Source: Gemmatimonadota bacterium (GTDB lineage Bacteria > Gemmatimonadota > Gemmatimonadetes > Longimicrobiales > Gaopeijiaceae). Taken from it: a stretch of DNA of 64,000 nt. The DNA lies in NCBI GenBank assembly GCA_026706635.1, contig JAPOYJ010000069.1, positions 1 to 64,000 on the forward strand, in the 5' to 3' direction. The position numbers and the translations under genes were made by a program. Below, piece by piece: positions 4,407 to 27,081 of this stretch. Position 1 is the first letter of the stretch. Each line of letters begins with the position of its first letter. The notes below the pieces were generated by a model that was not told where the DNA came from, made no database searches, and worked only from the letters and a program-made list of their open reading frames with translations.

Positions 4407-4627
4407 CTAGCAGTACGTGGATGATCTCGCGCGAGCACCGAGAGCGGCGAAGCGCCGGGCTGGCAAGGCGCGACGAAGCGGTCCGTGGATGCGCCGCCGG
4501 GCGAATGCCGTTGGGGTCCTGTTCGCGGGCCGCCCCACTGGCAAGGCGCCTCGCGGGGCGCATGGCGGAGCCATTCGCCCTAGAAGCAACGCAGAGCGAA
4601 GCCACGGATACGTCCACGGACTGCTAG
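4407..4627. repeat. MITE-like dispersed repeat, 221-bp copy
   Basis: Left end CTAGCAGTACGTGGATGATC, right end CGTCCACGGACTGCTAG, imperfect inverted repeats of each other. Internal modules CTGGCAAGGCGCGACGAAG and GAAGCAACGCAGAGCGAAGC match other copies. The hairpin here reads ATGGC-GGA-GCCAT, a different stem from the CCAATAGC/GCTATTGG version elsewhere but still paired. The element, with leader sequence and about 125 bases of unassigned DNA (4628-4752), fills the gap between the binding-protein gene and the SelW-like gene; nothing else recognisable was seen there. Confidence 0.8.
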
Positions 4628-4752: not shown

Positions 4753-4974
4753 TCACCCGAGGATCGCCTCGATCACCTCCTCATGCGTCGGATGGCGTCC
4801 CGTCGCGGCCTTCGAGTAGACGAGTCGACCGTCGGCGACTACTTCGAAGCGGCCGCCGCCCGAGCTCTTCAGCTCCACGGCGGTTCCGGGAAACCGTGCC
4901 TTCAGCGTTGCCGCCAAACTGACGGCCTGGGGCCTGTAGTTTCAGAGATCGCAGTATTCGATGGATACCCTCAT
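4753..4974 (-). CDS. SelW-like (Rdx family) protein with in-frame UGA: putative selenoprotein
   Basis: Read from ATG at 4974, this frame encodes 73 residues if the TGA at 4944-4942 is decoded as selenocysteine (residue 11): MRVSIEYCDLU then NYRPQA. The Rdx family (SelW/SelT/SelH) carries a CxxC or CxxU redox motif in just this place, after a first beta strand and before N-Y/W-x-P-x-A; here it is C8-D-L-U11. The rest (ATLKARFPGTAVELKSSGGG, FEVVADGRLVYSK, GRHPTHEEVIEAI) matches the family's thioredoxin-like fold and usual length. A ribosome-binding site (GGGGAAGG) lies six bases upstream, and a SECIS-type hairpin follows the UGA (4910-4926). Ordinary gene callers break this gene. A nonsense-mutated Cys version is the alternative, but it would not explain the hairpin. 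Selenocysteine machinery genes are not in this window. Confidence 0.78.
4910..4926 (-). promoter_or_regulatory. Putative bacterial SECIS hairpin
   Basis: In the SelW-like mRNA, GCCGUC-AGUUU-GGCGGC forms a six-pair stem (one U-G) with a five-base apical loop. The loop starts 22 bases after the UGA codon and has G at its second position. Known bacterial SECIS elements lie directly after the UGA, with the loop roughly 16-37 bases away and a G among its first two loop bases. The hairpin is within the coding sequence, as expected for SelB recruitment in bacteria. Confidence 0.65.
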
Positions 4975-5015
4975 GTTGCCTTCCCCAAGCGCTGTGTGTT
5001 TTCTCCGGCAGGTGG

Positions 5016-26825: not shown

Positions 26826-27081
26826 CTAGCAGTCCGTGGATAATCTCGCGCGAGCACCGAGAGCGGCGAAGCGCCCCGCTGGCAAGGCGCGACGAAGGGC
26901 CAATAGCCGCAGCGCTATTGGTCCGAGGAGCAACGCAGAGCGCAGCGGGGGACACTGGCATTGTAAACCATGGATTACACATTGTAAGGCATAGATTACA
27001 GTATGGAAAAGCGAGCGAAGCGGTCCAGCGGAGATGCAGCGCCGCTCGAATGCCGTGGGAGGTTTGTCCACGGGCTGCTAG
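26826..27081. repeat. MITE-like dispersed repeat, longest single copy (256 bp)
   Basis: Left end CTAGCAGTCCGTGGATAATC; right end TTTGTCCACGGGCTGCTAG; these are inverted repeats over about 17 bp with few mismatches. Order of modules: terminus, CGCGCGAGCACCGAGAGCGG, CTGGCAAGGCGCGACGAAGG, hairpin CCAATAGC-CGCAGC-GCTATTGG (26902-26923), GCAACGCAGAGCGCAGCGG, paired TGTAA palindromes (26962-27000), GGTCCAGCGGAGATGCAGCG, terminus. It has no ORF of protein character. It sits inside the Tol operon between tolA and tolB. Confidence 0.85.
26962..27000. promoter_or_regulatory. Paired palindromic operator-like site 3
   Basis: Units TGTAAACCATGGATTACA (26962-26979) and TGTAAGGCATAGATTACA (26983-27000), 21-bp period, within the longest dispersed repeat. 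If bound by a regulator, the site could affect tolB, whose start is 145 bases away. Confidence 0.6.

Follow-up and report, generated by a model that had tools for sequence, protein, structure and literature searches.

The window analysed here, a 64,000-nucleotide stretch of a Gemmatimonadota draft genome, carries on its minus strand a short reading frame interrupted by a single TGA, and the locus raises the question of whether that codon is decoded as selenocysteine (Sec) in a gene that annotation has overlooked. An earlier note on this DNA had proposed a SelW-like selenoprotein gene. The analyses presented below make it close to certain that positions 4974-4753 (-) hold a functional SelW-like (Rdx family) selenoprotein gene, here called selW, with predicted SelB-dependent Sec at codon 11. 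Computed support covers the gene, its frame, the conservation of the UGA, the covariation of the selenocysteine insertion sequence (SECIS), the Sec machinery and the fold.

Gene, reading frame and flanking sequence

The selW gene (4753..4974, minus strand) encodes 73 residues followed by a TGA stop. The frame begins with an ATG at 4974 and ends with the terminal TGA at 4755-4753, and its sole internal stop is the TGA at 4944-4942, so that the coordinates and frame of the earlier note were reproduced. The read-through product is MRVSIEYCDLUNYRPQAVSLAATLKARFPGTAVELKSSGGGRFEVVADGRLVYSKAATGRHPTHEEVIEAILG, in which CDLU forms residues 8-11. The predicted Sec codon of this motif (4942..4944, minus strand) occupies the second position of CxxC/CxxU and aligns with the second Cys of CxxC homologues, the redox position that had been assigned to it; the aligned codon is UGA in relatives and Cys in one genome described below (G129). 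A purine-rich stretch (ggggaagg, about 4985-4978) lies upstream of the ATG, as had been claimed, and the probable ribosome-binding site GGGGAAGG, placed from the sequence at 4978..4985 (-), ends 3 nt before the start codon. With translation table 11, no open reading frame of at least 60 amino acids was called in the selW frame and the locus was covered by wrong-frame ORFs only, which bears out the expectation that standard gene calling misses the gene.

The gene is flanked by two copies of a dispersed repeat, CTAGCAGTCCGTGGATaATCTCGCGCGAGCACC, the upstream copy beginning only about 42 nt before the ATG. Copies were located at 4407-4627, 5016-~5150, 1782-2136 and 26826-27081, often as inverted pairs that face each other across roughly 220-360 bp. 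The element is MITE- or REP-like, with 39 genomic occurrences of its core versus 0 for a reversed-pattern control.

Family membership and predicted fold

Profile searches with the read-through product gave matches along its whole length to PF10262 (Rdx; 71.9 bits, cut-off 22.6), TIGR02174 (63.4 bits, cut-off 34.2) and NF041051 (93.5 bits, cut-off 88). The length and family motifs noted earlier are thus matched by scores above curated cut-offs. Relatives of solved structure identified by sequence were human C17orf37/MIEN1, Agrobacterium Atu0228 and Streptomyces SAV_2001.

The AlphaFold model of the product (pLDDT 95, pTM 0.83) contains a strand at residues 2-8 and a helix at residues 14-27 with the redox motif between them, the arrangement expected of a thioredoxin-like fold. 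Its top PDB matches were SelW-related crystal structures, with TM scores up to 0.92. The SelW-related proteins 2fa8 (Agrobacterium), 2obk (Pseudomonas) and 2p0g (Vibrio) share the fold at TM scores of about 0.84-0.92 and 23-31% identity, and presumably carry Cys in place of Sec. Mouse SelW (2npb; TM 0.67) has the family fold and CxxU in common with the selW product, but its SECIS is eukaryotic and lies in the 3′ UTR, whereas the one proposed here follows immediately after the UGA.

The predicted SECIS hairpin

The predicted upper stem-loop of the bacterial SECIS (bSECIS), GCCGUC AGUUU GGCGGC, lies at 4910..4926 (-) with its loop beginning 21 nt after the UGA. Numbered from the U of UGA, columns 19-24 pair with columns 30-35, and the 6-bp stem, the 5-base loop, the G at loop position 2 (N1-G-U-N-N2) and the distance from the UGA were all found as first described. 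An extra A-U pair could close the loop down to GUU. Published bSECIS criteria comprise an upper stem of 4-16 bp, an apical loop of 3-9 nt, a G in the first two loop positions, a spacing of 16-37 nt and a minimum free energy (MFE) of -7.5 or lower (PMC13188914). The selW hairpin falls within every one of these limits (6 bp, 5 nt, G, 21 nt, about -10.3 kcal/mol), its energy being estimated at about -10.3 to -10.7 kcal/mol.

By itself the hairpin is weak evidence, and in a single sequence it would not stand out. It was not the minimum-energy fold of the isolated 40-51 nt stretch, and the folding energy of the single sequence was not clearly lower than that of shuffles (z -0.67 to -1.47). Of all the TGA triplets of this GC-rich window, about 14% were followed by a comparable hairpin, and the window gave no Rfam match at gathering thresholds. 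With another fold at the energy minimum, it is covariation that argues for the hairpin forming in vivo.

Indeed, the hairpin was present at the same place without gaps in 65 distinct relatives, with a spacing of 21 nt from the UGA in virtually all of them. This fixed position, together with the covariation in the same relatives, places it above chance. Paired cells amounted to 90.2% observed versus 85.1% in shuffled alignments, double changes affecting both sides occurred in 5 of 8 pairs, and the covariation score of 0.238 (0.148 in shuffles) was reached by 0 of 500 shuffles; controls with slid partners scored 0.10 or less. The earlier suggestion of a bacterial SECIS at this position is therefore upheld both by the published criteria and by covariation.

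Columns 26 (the loop G) and 29 (U) were invariant across the 65 sequences. At pair 22-32, G-C was replaced by U-A or A-U, and the two amino acids changed together from Ala/Ala to Ser/Glu or Thr/Val; some rows had an A.C mismatch, i.e., the pairing is not absolute. Two genes from another family of the class (L103 and L109) have the same two solutions at this pair, which suggests that the solutions arose independently. Ser codons in the loop were AGT in 37 of 37 cases and Gly codons GGT in 17 of 17, AGT making up 4.7% of Ser codons across the window. In the paired amino-acid changes that the SECIS stem forces, RNA structure constrains protein sequence in textbook fashion.

Sec-decoding machinery and proposed mechanism

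The genome is a 2.81-Mb draft of 86 contigs, 96% complete. Profile searches detected selA (474 bits, cut-off 268), selB (330 bits, cut-off 242) and selD (386 bits, cut-off 125), and a tRNA-Sec was detected as well (77 bits, gathering 47), with anticodon TCA according to ARAGORN; the four sit on four different contigs. Each component that the earlier note had named for a search is thus present in the genome of the gene, and the main objection to a selenoprotein, a lack of selB or selC, accordingly fails. The selD gene (L018, G000:C1:1264-2184) is likewise interrupted by an in-frame TGA, in the active-site motif HGAGUACK, and is for that reason predicted to be a second selenoprotein gene of this genome.

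In SelB-dependent decoding, the hairpin recruits SelB-GTP-Sec-tRNA to the UGA. At selW, a ribosome reaching UGA codon 11 would be supplied by SelB, with GTP and Sec-tRNA-Sec, bound to the hairpin 21 nt downstream, and insertion of Sec would yield a 73-residue thioredoxin-like protein with C-x-x-U in the loop after the first strand. The product is most likely a small cytosolic thiol/selenol oxidoreductase that may take part in peroxide or disulfide exchange through a selenenylsulfide formed by Cys8 and Sec11. That Sec is inserted at codon 11 in vivo, and that the product is redox-active, we infer from the computed evidence. The function of bacterial SelW-like proteins has been called unclear, with a redox role suggested from the motif (PMC1088965).

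The UGA might instead have two fates, acting in part as a selenium-dependent stop, such that termination after 10 residues would be a regulatory output and production of the Sec form would require a plentiful supply of selenium. Some termination comes with SelB-dependent decoding in general, and nothing specific was seen at selW. Among the genes tested, no neighbours within 3-5 kb were shared with relatives, so that genomic context offers no functional hint and no conserved downstream target for such an output was seen; we regard this alternative as unlikely.

Conservation and selection

The preferred reading, a selenoprotein gene decoded with SelB, was further supported by the pattern of conservation. 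The genome_contigs search yielded 24 relatives, 23 of them full length and labelled as Gemmatimonadota-type, Planctomycetota, Chloroflexi and gammaproteobacterial MAGs. In all 23 the aligned codon was TGA and the frame beyond it was intact, at identities up to 76%. Downstream of the SECIS the frame was kept with a dN/dS of about 0.12-0.28 against the closest relatives, and divergence was greatest at third codon positions (0.52 versus 0.30 and 0.28), indicating from these substitution patterns that selW is under purifying selection downstream of the UGA. Random substitutions and frameshifts in close relatives, the second objection foreseen in the earlier note, were replaced by an intact frame, a conserved UGA and a dN/dS of about 0.1-0.4.

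These data bear directly on the view that selW is a decayed pseudogene of a Cys-type SelW, in which TGC or TGT became TGA and the hairpin is a chance product of GC-rich sequence. The frequency of comparable hairpins after TGAs of the window (about 14%) and the lack of an Rdx gene in other sampled members of the genus speak for decay. Against it stand the conservation of the same UGA across the phylum as well as in MAGs of Planctomycetota, Chloroflexi and Gammaproteobacteria, the covarying hairpin, selection continuing beyond the UGA and the Sec machinery of the genome. Pseudogene status is very improbable, conservation having already refuted it.

Distribution in the phylum

An Rdx match was found in 193 of 395 genomes of a phylum sample, with exactly one TGA in all but five among the matches listed (roughly 155). 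The five stop-free matches (104-112 bits) were considered as Cys orthologues and rejected; they are CxxC proteins with longer C-termini and probably represent a paralogous subfamily. Co-occurrence of selA and Rdx was pronounced (175/18/108/94; Fisher p = 4e-17, a statistic that ignores relatedness).

Rdx genomes without a selA match, six of which were followed up, fell cleanly into two kinds, one with a Cys gene and the other with UGA genes and tRNA-Sec. The first is G129, a single-contig genome estimated to be 100% complete, in which no selA match and no tRNA-Sec above the cut-off (best 43.9) were found. Its Rdx gene (L106, G129:C1:2897500-2897706) has Cys at the Sec position, and the hairpin is decayed, the invariant loop G being changed to C and the closing pair broken. 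L106 may be a natural Sec-to-Cys replacement. In the five UGA-bearing genomes checked that had no detected selA, tRNA-Sec was found throughout (71-80 bits), and selA is for this reason most likely missing from incomplete drafts.

Reading of the UGA as something other than Sec, by general reassignment (e.g., UGA = Trp) or leaky suppression, would also leave the frame open but is scarcely credible, as TGA is the terminal stop of selW and of several relatives, a dedicated Sec tRNA (anticodon TCA), selA and selB are present, and the no-Sec genome G129 has Cys rather than Trp at the aligned position.

In the genus of the present genome (g1), no Rdx gene was detected in about 22 other sampled genomes although selA was found, so that the SelW-like protein is dispensable there. 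The gene was either lost in the rest of the genus or gained in the present genome. On balance, though with considerable reserve, we favour a history in which SelW-like selenoproteins are widespread and systematically unannotated in Gemmatimonadota, patchily lost and occasionally converted from Sec to Cys with decay of the SECIS, the present genome having retained or reacquired a gene that is otherwise missing from its genus, where the Sec machinery persists.

Other Rdx-like genes were seen in the sample. L096 and L097 (G197 and G116) are divergent members of the same family with UGA; the L096 motif GGGGIFEL resembles the Planctomycetota/Gammaproteobacteria type, and the gene was possibly transferred. 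A second weak Rdx-like match, L101 (G048:C151:14099-14251), scored below the family cut-off, has an in-frame TGA (YCAYU) and could be a further selenoprotein paralogue.

Discussion

Bacterial SelW-like selenoproteins have been known since 2005, and in Sargasso Sea data they were the most abundant selenoprotein family, with 48 genes (PMC1088965); they are listed among the known prokaryotic selenoprotein families (PMC13188914). With these SELENOW-like proteins selW shares PF10262, CxxU, a SECIS immediately downstream and the thioredoxin-like fold (PMC1088965; PMC13188914). There is no difference in principle, and only the lineage of the host (Gemmatimonadota, near Palauibacter/BD2-11) and the sequence itself are new. 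The best-scoring curated model, NF041051 (SelTWH_Campy), represents the epsilonproteobacterial SelW of a different phylum, some genes of which were likewise missed by annotation; such omission of SelW genes is documented (PMC4607533). A literature search by title and abstract for Gemmatimonadota and selenocysteine found no paper on the subject.

The selW gene of this Gemmatimonadota-type MAG is thus a well-supported, ordinary member of a well-known selenoprotein family. It illustrates cleanly how a gene can escape standard annotation, and Rdx matches occur in about half of the sampled phylum, nearly always with a TGA. The finding opens no new mechanism, but it brings selenium use into the known biology of Gemmatimonadota MAGs.
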